From the NCBI RefSeq assembly GCF_900177765.1, contig NZ_FXWI01000004.1, forward strand, positions 124,001 to 188,000: a DNA stretch of 64,000 nt. The letters are read 5' to 3'. Origin of the DNA: Agreia sp. VKM Ac-1783 (GTDB lineage Bacteria > Actinomycetota > Actinomycetes > Actinomycetales > Microbacteriaceae). Every line of letters starts with the position of its first letter. The first letter of the stretch is position 1. Under the pieces are notes generated by a model. It saw nothing but the letters and a program-made list of their open reading frames with translations. It was not told where the DNA came from and did no database searches. Positions 26,115 to 53,799 of the stretch are shown one piece after another. The translations under genes and the position numbers were made by a program.

Positions 26115-26221
26115 GCGCTGATCGAGTAGCCGCACGAGGAACGAGCCGGCGTATCGAGGTCACCTCCCGGTGGTCTCGATACGCTTCGGCCGCAGGCGGC
26201 CTCGGGCTACTCGACCAGCGC
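26115..26221. repeat. Palindromic intergenic repeat, copy A
   Basis: Left arm GCGCTGATCGAGTAG and CGTATCGAGGTCACC; right arm GGTGGTCTCGATACG and CTACTCGACCAGCGC: an imperfect ~107-bp inverted repeat between the aldolase and rhamnulokinase genes. The same sequence family occurs at 43624, 46451/46837 and 53708. Here it lies between codirectional genes of one pathway, where it could reduce read-through to the kinase gene. Confidence 0.85.
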
Positions 26222-26238
26222 ACAGAGGCGGCCTCCGC

Positions 26239-42448: not shown

Positions 42449-43633
42449 ATGCCCTCCATTCCCACACCCTTCAGTGCACAGGTGACGGCCGAGGAGCTCG
42501 CCGACCTGCGCACGCGCCTCCGAGCGACCCGGTGGCCCGACGCTCCCGAAGACGCGGGGTGGTCGCTGGGCACCGATGTCGACTACCTGCGCGAGCTCGT
42601 GCACTACTGGGCAGAGGAGTTCGACTGGCCTGCGCAGGAGAAGGCGCTCGCGCGCATCCCTCGCTTTCGGATCGAGCTCGGCGGCCTCGGCATCCACTTC
42701 GCCCACATACGAGCGGCGCAGTCGGGCGACGCCGACCGGACCGGCGCCAGGCCCGCCATGCCGCTGATCCTCAGCCACGGCTGGCCCGACTCGTTCTGGC
42801 GCTACTCCAAGGTGATCCCGCTGCTCACCGACCCCGCCGCGCACGGGGCAGACCGCGCCGACGCGTTCGACGTCGTCGTGCCCGATATGCCCGGCTTCGG
42901 CTACTCAGACAAACCCGCCGGTGCGCCGCTGAGCTCGATCGATGTCGCCGGCCTCTGGGCAGGGTTGATGGATGCGCTGGGTTACGACCGCTTCGGCGCC
43001 GCCGGTGGCGACATCGGCAGCCACGTGAGCCGCTACCTGGCGCTCGACTTTCCCGAGAGGGTGTTGGCGGTGCACCGCACCGACGCCGGGATCCCCGTTG
43101 CTCTTCCCGGTCTCGAACTCACACCGCGCGAGCGGAGTTTCGTCGACGAGGCCGCAGCCTGGAATCTCAGCGAGGGCGCGTACGCGGCGATGCACCGCAC
43201 GAAGCCGCAGACCGCGGCCGTCGGGCTCACCGACTCTCCCGCCGGCCTGGCCGCGTGGATCGTCGAGAAGCTGCGCTCCTGGAGCGACTGCCATGGAGAC
43301 CTCGAGAGCAGCTACTCGAAAGACGAGATACTGACTCTCATCAGCATGTACTGGTTCACCGGCACCATCGGCTCGTCGATGCGCATGTACACGGCGAACT
43401 CCGCGACCACGCCTGAACAACTCGCGCGCCGCGTCGAGGTGCCGTCGGGCTTCGCCCTGTTTCCCGGCGACATCCTGCACCCGACACGCGAGTGGCTCGA
43501 CCGCACCGCGAATACGGTGCACGTCAGCGAACCCCCGCGCGGCGGACACTTCGCGGCCTTCGAGGAGCCCGAGCTCTACGCGCAGGAGCTGCGCGACTTC
43601 TTCCGCCCATATCGATCAGCGCCGGTCGAGTAG
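42449..43633 (+). CDS. Epoxide hydrolase (EHN-domain alpha/beta hydrolase)
   Basis: A 394-residue microsomal-type epoxide hydrolase. The EHN domain occupies about 1-110; the catalytic fold has the oxyanion HGWPDSFW motif, nucleophile Asp in GGDIGSH, and the terminal His in PRGGHFAAFE. It opens epoxides to diols. The alternative GTG 42440 overlaps the likely -10 box and is rejected. Its stop codon TAG lies inside repeat copy B. It pairs with the divergent CYP152 gene. Confidence 0.92.
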   Translation: MPSIPTPFSAQVTAEELADLRTRLRATRWPDAPEDAGWSLGTDVDYLRELVHYWAEEFDWPAQEKALARIPRFRIELGGLGIHFAHIRAAQSGDADRTGARPAMPLILSHGWPDSFWRYSKVIPLLTDPAAHGADRADAFDVVVPDMPGFGYSDKPAGAPLSSIDVAGLWAGLMDALGYDRFGAAGGDIGSHVSRYLALDFPERVLAVHRTDAGIPVALPGLELTPRERSFVDEAAAWNLSEGAYAAMHRTKPQTAAVGLTDSPAGLAAWIVEKLRSWSDCHGDLESSYSKDEILTLISMYWFTGTIGSSMRMYTANSATTPEQLARRVEVPSGFALFPGDILHPTREWLDRTANTVHVSEPPRGGHFAAFEEPELYAQELRDFFRPYRSAPVE

Positions 43634-43736
43634 CCCGCGAGGAACGAGCGGGCGTATCGAGACCACCCACCGGTCTCGATAGGGTCGCTGGGCGACCTAC
43701 TCGACCAGCGCGGGGGGACCTACTCAACCAGCGCGA
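43624..43736. repeat. Palindromic intergenic repeat, copy B
   Basis: Same family as copy A: GGTCGAGTAG, GGGCGTATCGAGACCACC, then GGTCTCGATAGGG and CCTACTCGACCAGCGCG, with an extra right end CCTACTCAACCAGCGCG. It lies between convergent genes and contains the stop codon of the epoxide hydrolase gene (43631-43633). Confidence 0.85.
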
Positions 43737-45487: not shown

Positions 45488-46444
45488 GTGGATGACATCG
45501 AGATCGAAGACAGCATCGCGTCACGTCTGGGGCTCGGACTCGCCGCCATCGGGCGCCCCGCCTACATCACGGGTGGTCGCGCGAAAGACCTCGGCGAGGG
45601 CGCGGAGAGAAGCGTGGATGCGATGCGAGCCCGGGCCCACAAGCTGCTCGACGCCGCGTGGTGGCTGGGCATCCGGTACCTCGACGCGGCCCGCTCCTAC
45701 GGACTCGCCGAGCAGTTCCTCGGATCGTGGCTCGCCGAGCATCCGGGGCACCGCGACGAGCTGACGATCGGCTCGAAGTGGGGCTACGAGTACATCGGCG
45801 ACTGGCGCCTCGATGCCCCGCAACAGGAGCGCAAGGAGCACTCGCTCGCCATGTTCGAGCGGCAGTGGGCCGAAACCCTCGAGGCGCTCGGCACCGAACC
45901 CGACGTCTATCTCGTGCACTCTCTGACGTCAGACAGCCCCGCCCTCGACGACTCCGCCCTGCTCGATCGCTTGCGCGCGCTTCGCGACAGCGGTGTGCGC
46001 GTGGGCTTCTCGACGAGCGGGGCCGATCAGGCCGCCGTGATCGAGCGCGCCCTGGGACTGACCGACTCCCCCTTCTCGGCAGTGCAGTCGACCTGGAACC
46101 TCCTCGAGCCCTCCGTCGGCGACGCCCTCGCGGCCGCGAACGACGCGAAGTGGCTCGTCGTCGTCAAAGAGGTGCTGGCCAACGGCCGCCTCACCTCGCG
46201 CGGAGAAGAGACGGCCGTCGCCGCGCTCGCCGCCGAAGACGGTCAGCGCCTCGACGGCCTCGCCATCGGCGCGGCCGTGTCGCATCCCTGGGCCGACATC
46301 GTGCTGACGGGAGCCGTGACGCGCAAGCAGCTGAAGCAGAACCTGGATGCGCGTCCGCCGTCACTCGACGAGGAACGCCTCGCCGAGCTCGCCCAGCCCG
46401 CCGAGCAGTACTGGGCGGCCCGCGCCGCTCGCCCCTGGAGCTGA
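45488..46444 (+). CDS. Aldo/keto reductase
   Basis: A 318-residue NADPH-type barrel. The catalytic set is visible: Asp and Tyr in LDAARSYGLAEQF, Lys in GSKWGYEY, His in VYLVHSLTSD. The GTG start at 45488 has TAGGCT six bases upstream and no Shine-Dalgarno, so it is likely leaderless. Substrate unknown. It converges with the GIY-YIG gene across a repeat half. Confidence 0.9.
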   Translation: MDDIEIEDSIASRLGLGLAAIGRPAYITGGRAKDLGEGAERSVDAMRARAHKLLDAAWWLGIRYLDAARSYGLAEQFLGSWLAEHPGHRDELTIGSKWGYEYIGDWRLDAPQQERKEHSLAMFERQWAETLEALGTEPDVYLVHSLTSDSPALDDSALLDRLRALRDSGVRVGFSTSGADQAAVIERALGLTDSPFSAVQSTWNLLEPSVGDALAAANDAKWLVVVKEVLANGRLTSRGEETAVAALAAEDGQRLDGLAIGAAVSHPWADIVLTGAVTRKQLKQNLDARPPSLDEERLAELAQPAEQYWAARAARPWS

Positions 46445-46450
46445 CCGGTC

Positions 46451-46500
46451 GCGCTGATCGAGTAGACCCGCGACGAAGGAGCCGTCGTATCGAGATCACT
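46451..46500. repeat. Palindromic repeat, copy C, left half
   Basis: GCGCTGATCGAGTAG, then GTCGTATCGAGATCAC: only the left arm of the repeat family. It ends inside the GIY-YIG gene, whose stop codon (46496-46498, minus strand) is formed by it. Confidence 0.8.
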
Positions 46501-46786
46501 CCCGCCGCTTCCAGACCTTCTTGCTCAAACCCGGCAGTCTGTGAAGTTCCCCGCTGATGAGCGCCTCTCGCTTGGCACGGCTCCAGCCTTGGATGCGCTT
46601 CTCCATAGCGAAAGCTTCGTCGACCCGGTCGTACTCCTGCGAAAAGACGAGCTCAACTGGAAGGCGACGTTTGGTGAACTCAGCACCGTGTCCGGACGAG
46701 TGCTGTTCAACACGAGCCTCGAGGTGCCAGGTGCTTCCGACGTAGTAGGTCCCGTCTGAACAGCGGAGGATGTAGACGTATGGCAT
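46496..46786 (-). CDS. GIY-YIG nuclease, nested between repeat halves
   Basis: A 96-residue single-domain GIY-YIG endonuclease of the UPF0213/YhbQ type. The conserved set is complete: YVYILRC and YYVGST (GIY-YIG strands), Arg in LEARVEQH with His, and the metal-binding Glu in FAMEKRIQGWSRAK. ATG 46786 is favoured over 46834 by homology and by CATAAT seven bases upstream. The left half of the genome's palindromic repeat lies at its 3' end and the right half, in three successive copies, beyond its 5' end. Similar small nucleases are thought to act in DNA repair or as mobile nucleases; role unknown. Confidence 0.88.
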   Translation of the reverse strand: MPYVYILRCSDGTYYVGSTWHLEARVEQHSSGHGAEFTKRRLPVELVFSQEYDRVDEAFAMEKRIQGWSRAKREALISGELHRLPGLSKKVWKRRE

Positions 46787-46826
46787 GCCGAGGATTATGG
46801 CCGGTGATCTATGGATGGCGAGGCAG

Positions 46827-46835
46827 TTATCCACA
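46827..46835 (+). promoter_or_regulatory. Perfect DnaA-box sequence upstream of the GIY-YIG gene
   Basis: TTATCCACA, within the 13-mer GTTATCCACAGGT (46826-46838) also found before the HNH gene at 28052-28064. It lies about 40 bp upstream of the nuclease start, in opposite orientation, and abuts the right repeat half. Confidence 0.5.
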
Positions 46836-46836
46836 G

Positions 46837-46961
46837 GTGGTCTCGATACGCTTCGGCCGTGAGCGGCCTCGGGCTACTCGACCAGCGCAACCCCCGTGAG
46901 CGGCCTCGGGCTACTCGACCAGCGCAACTCCCGCGAGCGGCGCAGGGCTACTCGAGCAGCG
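46837..46961. repeat. Palindromic repeat, copy C, right half with two extra ends
   Basis: GGTGGTCTCGATACG ... CTACTCGACCAGCGCAA (to 46890) is the right arm; the terminal 35-37 bp unit, ending CGGGCTACTCGACCAGCG, is then repeated at 46891-46927 and, degenerate, at 46928-46961. The last unit supplies the TAG stop (46948-46950) of the GH3 gene on the minus strand. Confidence 0.85.
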
Positions 46962-49446
46962 TTGTCTCGGTGACCTCGATCGTCTTCGTGAGCGGCAGGT
47001 CGGAGACGCTGGTTCCGGCGTGCAACTGGAACGCGCCCTGCTCGTAGTGCCACCCCGGGTCGCCCTGCGCATCCACACCCCAGTCGGCGAAGGCTCGAGC
47101 CGACACCGGGATGGTGACCCACGTGCTTTCGCCCGGCTCGACGCGCACGGCGGCGAAGCCGACGAGCCAGCGAACGGGGCGATCGATCGACGAGTCCGCG
47201 CGCGACGCGTAGACCTGCACGACCTGCTTGCCCGAGCGCGAGCCCGTGTTGGTGACCCGAACCGCAGCTGCGACGGTGCCGCCCTCTGAGACCGTCGAGC
47301 TGTCGAGCGCGAGATCGTCGAGAGACCAGCTCGTGTATCCGAGTCCGTGGCCGAACTCGTAGGCAGGCTCGGTGCCGGCCTTCAGCCAGGCGCGGTACCC
47401 GATGTGGATGCCCTCGTCGTACGACACCACGCCGTTCTCGGGAGTCACGTCGATTACGGGCACGTCGGCCTGCTCGATCGGCCAGGTTGTGGGCAGGCGA
47501 CCGCCGGGCTCCGCGACTCCGAGCAGGATGTCTGCGACCGCGTCGCCATACTGCTGCCCGCCGAACCAGCTCAGCAGCACCGCCGAGACCTCGTTGCGCC
47601 ACGGCAGAAGCACGGGCGACCCCGAATTGACGACGACGACGGTGCGTGGGTTCGCCGCGGCGACCGCGCGCACCAGCTCGTCTTGGCGACCGGGAAGCGC
47701 GAGCGAGTCACGGTCGTAGCCCTCCGACTCGACCCGCGAGTTCGTTCCGACCACGACCACGGCCACGTCGGCCACGCGTGCGGCCTCGACGGCCTTGGCG
47801 ATCAACTCTTCGGGATTGGAGAGGTCTGGCTCGATGCCGATCGTGATGCTGAGCGCACCGGCCAGCGGGCCGCCCTGCTGAATGTCGTATTCGATGGTGA
47901 CGTCGATCGGCTCACCCTCGACGACAGGCACTGCGACCGAGCTCGAGGGCGGCGAGAGGAATGCCGCGCCCAGGTCAGTGCCCTCCGTGATCACGTTCTC
48001 TTCGTGCAACAGCTCGCCGTTCACGATCACGCGACCGTTTCCGGCGCCCGCGAAGCCGAGCAGGATCTCGCCCGTCGCATCCGGTGTGTACCGCGTGGCG
48101 AACTCGAGCATCGAGGCCTGAGCGATGGGGGCGTCGCCGCCGAACCAGACGAGAGCCGACGCACGGCGTTCCTCATCGAAGATCGAGGCACCGGATGCGT
48201 CGAGGAAGCGAACGTGTGCGCCCGGTTCGCCCGTGACCGGGTTGGTCATGCGATCGAGAGGAAGCTCGGCGATGCCCTCCTGCACGACGGCGCCCACCGA
48301 GTAGCTGACCGCGGTATCGGGCAGCGCGGAGCGGAGTCCGTCGAGCGGGGTGACGACCTTCTCGGGAAGAACAGTGGCGCTTCCGCCGCCCTGGGTTCGG
48401 GCGAAGCGAGCATTGTGCCCGATCACGGCGACCGACTTCAGCGACGAGGCGGTCCACGGCAGCTCTGCGTTCTCGTTGCGCACGAGCACCGCGCCCTCGA
48501 CCTCGGCTGTGCGGGCGAAGGCGACTCCGTCTTCGACCACCACGGGTTCGGGCGCGACGGCGTCGAATCCCTCGAGCGCTCCGACCCGGGCGGCCAACGC
48601 GAGCAGCCGCAGCACCTTGCGGTCCACGGCCGACTCTTCTACCTCGCCGGCACGAACGGCGGCGACGAGAACATCACCCCATGGACCGGCGGGACCGGGC
48701 ATCACGAGGTCCTGCGAGTAGCGGGCGCTGTTCACGTCGCGCACCGCGGTCCAGTCGCTGATGACGACGCCGTCGAAGCCCCACTCGGAGTTGAGGGGCG
48801 TCTCGAGCAGCTCGTTCTCAGTGACGGTGGCGCCGTTGACCGAGTTGTACGACGACATGACCAGCCAGGCATGCGCCTCGGTGATCGCCTTCTCGAAGGC
48901 CAGCAGATAGAGCTCGCGCAGGGGTCGATCGGCCACCTTCACGTCGACGGTGAAGCGGTCGGTCTCGAAGTCGTTCGCGATGTAGTGCTTGGGCGTCGCG
49001 CCGACGCCGTTCTCCTGCAGACCCTCGACATAGGCCGAGGCCAGGTCGGCTGTGAGAATCGGGTCTTCGCTGAACGCCTCGAAGTGGCGACCGCCGAGAG
49101 GTGAGCGGTGCAGGTTGATGGTCGGGCCGAGCACCACGTCGACGCCCTTGCGACGCGCCTCGACGGCGGCGACGTTGCCGTAGCGGCGGGCGATGGCCGC
49201 ATCCCATGACGAGCCGAGCGCCGTAGCCGAGGGCAGGTTCAGTGACGGACTGCGTTCGTCCCACACCTCGCCACGAACACCCGAGGGGCCGTCGGAGACG
49301 AGGATTCGGCGCAGGCCGATCTTCTCGAGTGGCCAGGTGGCCCAGAAGTCGTGCCCAGTGAGAACGAGCACCTTCTCTTCGAGAGTCAGCTGTGCGAGCA
49401 GCTCGAGCAGTCGCGGGTCGGTCGTGGCCTGGGTCTGGTCGGTCAT
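46948..49446 (-). CDS. GH3 family beta-glucosidase with PA14 insert
   Basis: An 832-residue glycoside hydrolase family 3 enzyme. N-terminal barrel with SDGPSGVRGE (51-60), KHYIANDFETDR (153-164) and the nucleophile Asp231 in GVVISDWTAV; then the alpha/beta sandwich, a PA14-like insert at about 400-550, and a C-terminal fibronectin-III-like domain starting near WSLDDLALDS. No signal peptide, so it acts on imported oligosaccharides. It follows a second GH3 gene by 3 bp. Its stop codon lies in a repeat. Beta-glucosidase is the commonest activity of this architecture; others are possible. Confidence 0.92.
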   Translation of the reverse strand: MTDQTQATTDPRLLELLAQLTLEEKVLVLTGHDFWATWPLEKIGLRRILVSDGPSGVRGEVWDERSPSLNLPSATALGSSWDAAIARRYGNVAAVEARRKGVDVVLGPTINLHRSPLGGRHFEAFSEDPILTADLASAYVEGLQENGVGATPKHYIANDFETDRFTVDVKVADRPLRELYLLAFEKAITEAHAWLVMSSYNSVNGATVTENELLETPLNSEWGFDGVVISDWTAVRDVNSARYSQDLVMPGPAGPWGDVLVAAVRAGEVEESAVDRKVLRLLALAARVGALEGFDAVAPEPVVVEDGVAFARTAEVEGAVLVRNENAELPWTASSLKSVAVIGHNARFARTQGGGSATVLPEKVVTPLDGLRSALPDTAVSYSVGAVVQEGIAELPLDRMTNPVTGEPGAHVRFLDASGASIFDEERRASALVWFGGDAPIAQASMLEFATRYTPDATGEILLGFAGAGNGRVIVNGELLHEENVITEGTDLGAAFLSPPSSSVAVPVVEGEPIDVTIEYDIQQGGPLAGALSITIGIEPDLSNPEELIAKAVEAARVADVAVVVVGTNSRVESEGYDRDSLALPGRQDELVRAVAAANPRTVVVVNSGSPVLLPWRNEVSAVLLSWFGGQQYGDAVADILLGVAEPGGRLPTTWPIEQADVPVIDVTPENGVVSYDEGIHIGYRAWLKAGTEPAYEFGHGLGYTSWSLDDLALDSSTVSEGGTVAAAVRVTNTGSRSGKQVVQVYASRADSSIDRPVRWLVGFAAVRVEPGESTWVTIPVSARAFADWGVDAQGDPGWHYEQGAFQLHAGTSVSDLPLTKTIEVTETTLLE

Positions 49447-52838: not shown

Positions 52839-53717
52839 ATGAGAGCCGACAAGACCGCGTTCAGCGGACTCAGCAAGAAGGAGCGTCGTGATCTCGTGCG
52901 CGAACTCGCCCGGCTGGAGCGCGAAGAGGCGGCCCGCCGCCGCCGACGCCGACGGATCGCGTGGCGGGCGGGCCTCGGAGTCGCCGGCGTCGCCGTGCTG
53001 TCGGTCGGCACCGTCACCATCGTCTCCGCGCTGCAACCGACACCCGTGCTCGGGCCGGCGAACATGGCCAGCGACGGCATCCTGTTCTCGGGCAACGGCA
53101 AGACGGTCACCGCCGCTACGACAGTGGCTCTCGAGTCGGGAACGGCGCCCGAGACGAGCCCACTCGACACGAGCGACGGCATGCTGCACCTGGTCGTGTA
53201 CACCGACTACGGCAACGCCGATTCAGCCACGTTCGAGACCACGAACGGCAGCACCCTGTTGTCGTGGGTGACGTCGGGGAACGCGACCCTCGAGGTGCAC
53301 CCCGTGGCACTCGACGACTCGGTGAATCAGAACTACTCGAAGCGCGCGGCGAACGCCGTCGCATGCGTCGCCGACGCGGCGCCCGACAGCGTTCCGGCCG
53401 TGAATTCCGCGCTCGCCGCCGCCCAGTCGACCGCTGGCGCGTCAGGACTGACCGATGCGCAGCTCGTCGCTCTCGTGCAGAAGGCGGGCGAGAACGACAA
53501 GTCGGTCGCAGACTGCATCACGTCGGGCACCTTCGGCGACTGGGTCGCGGATGCCACGGGCCGGGCCCGCGCATCGGTTCCGAATTCCGACGTGCCCACG
53601 CTCACGACCGCGCCGCTCGTGCTGGTGAACGGCAAGGCCTACACCGGGGCGCTCGACGACGCGAGCGCCTTCGAATCGTTCGCGAAGAGCGTCTACGCCC
53701 CTGCGCCGGTGGAGTAG
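52839..53717 (+). CDS. DsbA-fold membrane-anchored protein lacking CXXC
   Basis: 292 residues: charged N-terminus with seven consecutive Arg (33-39), one membrane anchor (about 43-65), then an extracytoplasmic thioredoxin/DsbA-like domain. Where related actinobacterial proteins have a CPxC active site after the first strand, this one has DYGNADSATF (123-132), so thiol-disulfide exchange is not expected; two other cysteines remain (AVACVADA and VADCITSG). The cis-Pro loop appears as TTAPLVLVNGK. GGAGAG precedes ATG 52839. Stop TAG is inside repeat copy D. Confidence 0.78.
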   Translation: MRADKTAFSGLSKKERRDLVRELARLEREEAARRRRRRRIAWRAGLGVAGVAVLSVGTVTIVSALQPTPVLGPANMASDGILFSGNGKTVTAATTVALESGTAPETSPLDTSDGMLHLVVYTDYGNADSATFETTNGSTLLSWVTSGNATLEVHPVALDDSVNQNYSKRAANAVACVADAAPDSVPAVNSALAAAQSTAGASGLTDAQLVALVQKAGENDKSVADCITSGTFGDWVADATGRARASVPNSDVPTLTTAPLVLVNGKAYTGALDDASAFESFAKSVYAPAPVE

Positions 53718-53799
53718 CCGCACAAGGAACGGGCGCGGCGTATCGAGACCGCCCGACGGATCTCGCTACGGCCGCGGGCGGCCTACTCGATCAGCGCAG
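53708..53799. repeat. Palindromic intergenic repeat, copy D
   Basis: GGTGGAGTAGCCGC, GGCGTATCGAGACCGCC, then GGATCTCGCTACGG and CCTACTCGATCAGCGCA, a ~92-bp member between convergent genes. It contains the stop codons of both: TAG 53715-53717 (plus) and TGA 53791-53793 (minus). Confidence 0.85.

Follow-up and report, generated by a model that had tools for sequence, protein, structure and literature searches.

Many bacteria have large numbers of short, non-coding palindromic repeats, and those that carry a GTAG tag have a dedicated enzyme, RAYT. As far as the available text of the published descriptions goes, each REP or REPIN family has its own specific RAYT (PMC3116915, PMC3733652). For the CGTC REPs, whose hosts include S. 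meliloti and A. lipoferum, a dedicated transposase seems to be lacking; the available text of Di Nocera et al. (2013; PMC3733652) leaves this question open and contains no mention of GIY-YIG genes. Our literature search, which covered open full-text papers, found among the matches listed no paper linking GIY-YIG genes with REPs. Among the GIY-YIG enzymes, homing endonucleases such as I-TevI and T4 Seg have a catalytic domain joined to a DNA-binding domain and reside in an intron or a conserved gene, and Slx1 has a partner protein and a RING domain; to our knowledge, no mobile repeats accompany Slx1.

Here, we analyzed a 64,000-nucleotide stretch of the genome of Agreia sp. VKM Ac-1783 (G000:C5:124001-188000; hereafter the window), in which a small GIY-YIG nuclease gene had been predicted to lie inside a split palindromic repeat and to be a possible source or mover of a REPIN-like repeat family. 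We found that the nuclease and the repeats are associated. We put at roughly 60% the probability that a small, single-domain GIY-YIG nuclease of the UPF0213/YhbQ superfamily with a Slx1-like fold belongs with a family of short palindromic repeats in a single selfish system of the REPIN kind. The framing of the gene and the link with copy number described below support the original prediction; its second part, movement of the repeats by the nuclease, goes beyond these observations, and we infer that the nuclease would bind and cut the units and thereby cause them to move.

The nuclease gene (46496-46786, minus strand; 96 amino acids plus stop; PF01541, 58.2 bits) lies between two genes. On the left is an aldo/keto reductase gene (45488-46444, plus strand; identified by domain search), which is outside the element, and on the right a glycoside hydrolase family 3 (GH3) gene (46948-49446, minus strand). 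The start codon of the nuclease is the ATG at 46786, and the same frame was matched in the homologue search (G000:C5:170499-170786). The coordinates agree with the predicted layout, in which the left arm of the repeat stands at the 3' end of the nuclease gene and the right arm, together with two tandem right ends, beyond its 5' end. The left unit (46455-46498, minus strand), with the structure arm-GAGTAG..GTATCGA-arm', is downstream of the gene, and the right unit (46838-46884, plus strand) is upstream of it and inverted relative to the left one. It was also correctly predicted that the left arm forms the nuclease stop codon: on the minus strand, the left unit opens with this TGA (46498-46496). 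Along the nuclease gene, the order is outer end, unit, box TGTGGATAAC, start, gene, stop from the second unit and outer end. Beyond the right unit, it is partially repeated twice in tandem, in copies of 37 nt (46885-46961, plus strand), with partial right ends located by the window repeat search at 46908-46921 and 46945-46958. The outer copy contains the last codons and the stop (46948-46950) of the GH3 gene, and therefore the GH3 C-terminus is unlike that in a genome of the same genus (G077), from which the whole block of repeats and nuclease (46449-46965, about 517 bp) is absent. Besides those in the window, head-to-tail tandem units were seen upstream of the nucleases in three other loci (L066, L084 and L074); such units adjoining a nuclease suggest local amplification.

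A TGTGGATAA box (TTATCCACA on the plus strand), which we take to be DnaA-box-like, is located on the minus strand at 46827-46835, about 48 bp before the nuclease start codon. Among the 81 nuclease loci of the bacterial family, TGTGGA was present within 110 bp upstream in 31, at 47-49 bp in 23 of those, compared with 12 of 810 controls; the TGTGGATAA/TGTGGACAA form of this box occurred at 12 loci among the nuclease homologues. The TGTGGA box may be a regulatory site or may couple nuclease expression to replication.

The protein has a GIY-YIG domain with a complete active site. Y5, Y15, G17, R25, H29 and E62, the GIY-YIG active-site set, were invariant in 47 of 47 aligned homologues, which were chosen from the 81 loci with the most diverged ones left out. 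The AlphaFold2 model (pLDDT 92) was closest to UPF0213 (E 8.6e-6) and then, more weakly, to Slx1-Slx4 (E 0.015, probability 1.00); the nearest solved structures were 1zg2 (PDB match, E 1.1e-14) and 1ywl, which belong with UPF0213/YhbQ/YazA proteins of the same domain. The window protein shares with Slx1 the GIY-YIG fold of a branched-DNA nuclease, but its 96 residues leave no space for a second domain. The PF01541 match covers residues 17-88 of the 112-aa open reading frame, that is, 1-72 of the 96-aa protein. GIY-YIG catalysis and patchy genes are shared with the homing endonucleases. Unlike them, the window protein has little beyond the catalytic domain, its gene is not in an intron and is framed by a high-copy repeat, and the combination of catalytic and DNA-binding domains in an intron or a conserved gene was not found for it; its score with the homing endonuclease profile TIGR01453 was 16 bits, far under the cut-off of 56. 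Two GIY-YIG genes were identified in the 3.76-Mb genome of the window, the second being UvrC-like in an open frame of 635 aa. We also considered a hidden RAYT in this genome and rejected it, no Y1_Tnp domain being present: PF01797 (Y1/RAYT) had no match there and matches in 2 of 249 genomes of the family, with a positive E. coli control. Accordingly, no RAYT gene framed by repeats was found in the window's genome. Because no Y1 transposase is present, the window system is not one of the RAYT systems, even if its way of working looks similar.

High-copy palindromic units, and inverted doublets folding into one hairpin, are features that this genome has in common with REP/REPIN-RAYT systems. With up to two mismatches, GGGCTACTCGACCA had 12 matches in the window vs 0.47 expected, and none of 100 shuffles reached 12. 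The other repeat end, TGGTCTCGATACG, gave a weaker signal (8 matches vs 2.03 expected; 1 of 100 shuffles reached 8). In the whole genome, the pattern TCGATACN{10,40}CTACTCGA had 149 matches and the reversed-pattern control none, and a stricter repeat pattern had 143 matches; spacing statistics were obtained from 99 repeat places among these 143. Forty neighbouring unit pairs were less than 100 bp apart. Facing (-,+) pairs accounted for 21 of them, all with 13-18 bp between units, and the 19 non-facing pairs (10 +-, 7 ++ and 2 --) were 15-97 bp apart. Among these 99 places, only two wider facing pairs were present within 1 kb, one at 169 bp and the nuclease pair at 347 bp. The prediction that the arms are elsewhere only tens of bases apart is thus borne out with one exception, the 169-bp pair. 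Because facing units among the 99 examined are otherwise, with this same exception, 13-18 bp apart, the nuclease gene occupies the place of a doublet spacer. The one doublet that was folded (26115-26222) is predicted to form one long hairpin (DNA fold, -41.3 kcal/mol, z -7.9), and single units in the window, folded as DNA, did not differ in this way from shuffled sequences (z 0.38 and -0.55). Two further inverted doublets of the family in the window are diverged, one in its right unit (43620-43707; a doublet in G541, empty in G077) and one identified by the window repeat searches (53703-53793).

To place the locus among its relatives, we collected homologues of the nuclease (81 matches in 61 of the 249 family genomes) with up to 16 kb around each of them. 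Framing was measured by a motif-free score, for which the 200 bp downstream were reverse-complemented and their best local match to the 200 bp upstream was taken. A score of at least 16 was reached by 47 of the 81 nuclease loci vs 1 of 222 open reading frames of 80-200 aa, 6 of 814 open reading frames of all sizes and 5 of 2939 random intervals in the same regions. It should be noted that the window's own locus scored only 14, because its two units have little in common except their ends. A second set consisted of the best 80 named loci in public genomes (Actinomycetota, Bacteroidota, Chlorobi, Anaerolineae, Fibrobacter, Spirochaetes, Proteobacteria, Melainabacteria and others), 42 of which scored at least 16 vs 4 of 3531 random intervals. 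Ten of them, confirmed by sequence as duplicates of family loci, were left out of the box-pair, unit, tree and inner-stem counts; without these ten, 35 of 70 reached the score. Thus, as the original prediction needed, many homologues have flanking repeats (47 of 81 and 35 of 70 framed), and unrelated genes do not split the repeat equally often, with 1 of 222 of the same size framed. Outside Actinomycetota, only 11 of 35 loci scored at least 16, and 31 of 35 had a unit on at least one side. For still more distant loci the figure was 11 of 37 vs 4 of 338 controls, which is rough, the wrong frame having been picked for several, and one of the 37 (L226) duplicates the family set. Within this distant set, B. 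subtilis yazA and the plasmid loci L327, L328, L330 and L331 had no inverted frame.

Two groups of loci call for separate mention. In L325, L326 and L329 (Methylobacterium, Sphingobium plasmids; scores 19, 41 and 31), GIY-YIG genes lie by other inverted palindromes, of the CCTCAGGATGAGGT and CACCCCGGGCTTGACCCGGGGTC types, which may be additional REP families that share this partner. A diverged nuclease branch in the window's family (L133 and L138-L141) had frame scores of 6-10; where other nucleases have YVGS, L138 and L140 have VTGT or ITGT and L141 has VTGS, and these genes are possibly decaying or domesticated copies of the nuclease.

The best 80 named relatives, from about ten phyla, were 54-70% identical to the window protein, and an identity in this range across such distances points to horizontal spread. 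A tree built from 146 proteins (L070, L089, L094, L142 and L143 left out) had few columns to draw on, and many of its forks stayed open. In this tree, the label 'other phyla' needed 5 changes, at least 3 of them by well supported branches, and the nucleases of two genomes of the window's family (G132 and G185) fell inside an otherwise non-actinobacterial group with support of 93/91. These label changes and this placement therefore indicate some transfer between phyla. The pairing of repeat and nuclease put forward for this clade is real, but its scope had been drawn too narrowly, as it crosses phyla and extends to CGTC REPs (see below).

The repeats differ by locus but follow a common plan: variable arm, GAG, inner hairpin, TCGA and complementary arm'. 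In an unbiased test of 64 x 256 = 16,384 box pairs, placed inside complementary 5-bp arms within 150 bp, GAG..TCGA was the top pair in each of three locus sets, namely, other phyla (29 of 35 loci vs 2 of 126 controls), named Actinomycetota, a set that also contains named Microbacteriaceae (14 of 35 vs 6 of 129), and the window's family (29 of 81 vs 4 of 366). We then defined a strict unit as GAG..TCGA with 4-bp arms and 5 of 6 positions paired, no more than 200 bp from the nuclease. Such units were present on both sides in 53, on one side in 45 and on neither side in 53 of 151 loci, vs 0, 25 and 690 of 715 control intervals; the same three counts were 26, 22 and 33 in the family, 11, 8 and 16 in named Actinomycetota and 16, 15 and 4 in other phyla. 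The nearest units were in facing order in only 27 of the 53 loci with units on both sides. The boxes are constant and the complementary arms around them vary, with 17 different 4-mers observed. The inner stem, read in a register that begins at the last G of GAGTAG, covaries: its mean length in 31 distinct GTAG-type units was 4.6 bp vs 1.6 bp when halves were swapped between units, and the highest of 1000 swapped trials was 2.2 bp. In addition, a unit overlapped the nuclease stop codon in 13 of the 81 family loci, and the CTGAG..TCGAAG pattern was at least threefold over control in 9 of 20 genomes from other phyla.

This plan makes the comparison with known systems more precise. As in REP/REPIN-RAYT systems, an enzyme gene is framed by units and each repeat family has its own enzyme (PMC3116915, PMC3733652, in the text available), but a GIY-YIG nuclease here takes the place of the Y1 HUH transposase. 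In the window's genome, the units even have a GTAG tag next to the hairpin (GAGTAG); the letters that follow GAG vary among nuclease-linked repeats, with GAGGAG, GAGCCT, GAGTGC and others at related loci, so that GTAG is one form among several. One genome (G174) has three nuclease paralogues beside three repeat types, for which a 400-kb sample gave 5, 6 and 9 dispersed hits. The pattern for the second of these families allowed GTCTCGAG, and 1 of its 6 hits has the nuclease-adjoining GTCACGAG form; for the third family, one or more of the 9 hits look like chance. The UPF0213/YhbQ/YazA genes differ from the window locus in their surroundings: E. coli yhbQ had no GAG..TCGA unit on either side and B. 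subtilis yazA, as mentioned above, no inverted frame, and on this evidence both look like host genes.

A second branch of GIY-YIG genes appeared to have a similar relationship with other repeats. In other Actinomycetota, ATTGCGAG..CGAAGCAAT repeats surround distantly related GIY-YIG genes, partly with a CGTC tag at L242 and L253 and with TGTC at L251. When a second-branch gene from Actinomycetota was used as a plasmid query, 32 records were obtained and 12 loci chosen, 8 of which had a frame score of at least 16 (300-bp flanks); 28 control intervals in the same short plasmid pieces had a median score of 8 and a highest score of 22. In 50-kb stretches around five second-branch loci, chosen after reading of the flanks, the nucleases scored 16-44 and none of 184 open reading frames reached 16. 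Strict CGTC hairpins (for example, CGTCATCCTCGGGCTTGACCCGAGGATCCA) were located on both sides of the gene in 6 of the 12 loci (three in Shinella, and one each in Neorhizobium, Rhizobium sp. CIAT894 and A. lipoferum) and on one side in Photobacterium. In the same kind of hairpin, CCTC was found on both sides in S. meliloti and on one side in R. tumorigenes. The detector identified no CGTC hairpin in Planktothrix, Spirosoma and Novosphingobium, where other palindromes are present. Thus, a second-branch GIY-YIG gene is flanked in six loci by hairpins that, like the CGTC REPs, have a CGTC tag and, but for one, a CCA tail. The published CGTC REPs differ in that the available text describes them without a dedicated transposase (PMC3733652), and S. 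meliloti has here CCTC in place of CGTC. The window's own repeat has no CGTC tag and falls outside the CGTC REP class (CGTC tag, AT-started stem and CCA tail). We regard it as an even bet that UPF0213-type and sister-branch GIY-YIG nucleases are the missing mobilisers of most RAYT-less REPs, including the CGTC REPs and the GAG..TCGA repeats (TGAGCCTGTCGAA, TGAGCGGAGTCGAA, GGTTGAGTAG..GTATCGAAACC and others; about ten phyla), and that they move hairpin doublets by a structure-selective nick of a 95-residue nuclease, a mechanism unlike that of any known transposase.

We also measured the relationship between repeat abundance and nuclease presence in the 249 family genomes. At least 5 copies of a clean pattern were present in 34 of 61 genomes with the nuclease vs 14 of 188 without it (p 1e-14). 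Permutation within the 22 mixed genera gave p 4e-4, the nuclease-bearing genomes being higher in 13 genera, lower in 5 and tied in 4. A broad genome pattern gave at least 40 hits in 45 genomes, 35 of the 61 with and 10 of the 188 without the nuclease, but coding DNA often contains CTGCTCGAC, which makes this pattern noisy, and therefore our statistics rest on the clean pattern. Within Agreia, the window nuclease was found between the same two neighbours in two genomes, G000 and G541 (in the latter by a DNA match of 81% identity, one side of which has some additional DNA), which have 149 and 154 repeat copies. Six other Agreia genomes, G077, G140, G542, G192, G238 and G543, have 13, 54, 57, 10, 0 and 1 copies, respectively, and a DNA search found no window nuclease at this site in them among the matches listed (G541-G543 were examined by DNA only). 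It should be noted that G077 and G140 have a different nuclease, about 60% identical to that of the window, and G542 has a short match to the window nuclease DNA at another place. The expectation that repeat number is lower in relatives without the gene was therefore confirmed as a tendency (14 of 188 vs 34 of 61 at the 5-copy threshold, and 0-57 vs 149 and 154 copies in Agreia), whereas the companion expectation, that repeat-rich relatives all have such a nuclease, was not, since those 14 genomes have at least 5 copies and one of them 1190. Three repeat-rich genomes without the short nuclease are G045 (1190 copies), G025 (189) and G069 (154). A short nuclease overlooked in such genomes was considered and rejected: a PF01541 search of 16 repeat-bearing genomes without a nuclease match found no short family member, but a UvrC-sized match in 15 and none in one, and a few hits in open frames of 290-375 aa. 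This result counts against the nuclease as the mover of the repeats.

As would be expected of a mobile element, presence and absence at otherwise matching sites were observed in both Agreia and Azospirillum. In G077, only 14 bp lie between the homologous blocks of the two neighbour genes, in place of the roughly 517 bp of repeats and nuclease in the window. A doublet present in G140 is missing in G542, with flanks 96% identical and CTGCGCCGGCGCAG left, by either gain or loss; for single units as well as doublets, the matching site in a relative can be empty. In A. lipoferum 4B, the nuclease and repeats lie between sufB and sufC (617 bp), and the same gap is 87 bp in A. oryzae, 91 bp in A. ramasamyi, 129 bp in strain B510 and 55 bp in A. 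thermophilum, four relatives chosen from 12 Azospirillum records; SufB is 92-99.6% identical across the compared Azospirillum. Inspection by eye revealed no recently duplicated nuclease within one genome. A nuclease between sufB and sufC was seen both in Shinella sp. PSBB067 (L341) and in A. lipoferum (L346, 25507-25800), with different REPs and with nuclease proteins only 46% identical; either the site is old and shared, or one target was hit twice.

The simplest reading of these data would be a structure-selective nuclease acting on extruded doublets. The nuclease gene between two inverted units would be the autonomous copy, and the doublets with a 13-18 bp spacer would be its non-autonomous, MITE-like derivatives. 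A doublet would extrude as a hairpin or cruciform, in which the nuclease would recognise the asymmetric GAG and TCGA boxes between the outer stem and the inner hairpin. It could then nick at the boxes and release or copy the doublet, which would be inserted at a new site.

The main rival explanation is that the repeats spread by other means and that the nuclease is a free-standing homing-type endonuclease, which cuts inside a cognate doublet and has its own gene copied there during repair, the repeats being no more than its home. The position of the nuclease gene in place of a 13-18 bp doublet spacer and the existence of repeat-rich genomes without the nuclease would both be consistent with such a parasite. 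GIY-YIG enzymes do include homing endonucleases, even if the TIGR01453 score of the window protein is far under the cut-off. However, no Y1/RAYT enzyme is present that could spread the repeats, and pure homing would not predict that repeat number follows the nuclease, as it does. Moreover, the protein has little beyond its catalytic domain (72 of 96 residues), and single units and doublets also occupy sites that are empty in relatives. On balance, we consider homing unlikely. Less probable still is a role in host upkeep, in which a structure-specific repair enzyme removes or processes repeat cruciforms, conferring tolerance and not spread, and is kept adjacent to the repeats by selection. The Slx1-Slx4 fold neighbours and the annotation of E. 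coli YhbQ as a DNA damage response nuclease fit this idea, but the gene is patchy (61 of 249 genomes), the nuclease with its repeats is present at sites empty in relatives, and genomes without it tend to have fewer repeats, not more. That small mobile or transferred genes simply land or stay in repeat-rich intergenic DNA, the repeats being terminators or insertion targets, is very improbable: insertion of IS elements into REPs is described for other bacteria in the available text of PMC1525189, but framed open reading frames were rare (1 of 222 of the same size, 6 of 814 in all and 0 of 184 in the five plasmid stretches) and the paralogues of one genome (G174) lie beside different repeat types.

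We therefore favor the reading that the nuclease and the repeats form one REPIN-like selfish system. A small nuclease has been found between CGTC REPs, and a second large group of repeats frames its relatives, which makes the question of the CGTC transposase directly testable. If this reading is true, REPIN-like systems would have a second, unrelated enzyme class, which would also explain why the repeats differ so strongly in their letters despite one plan.
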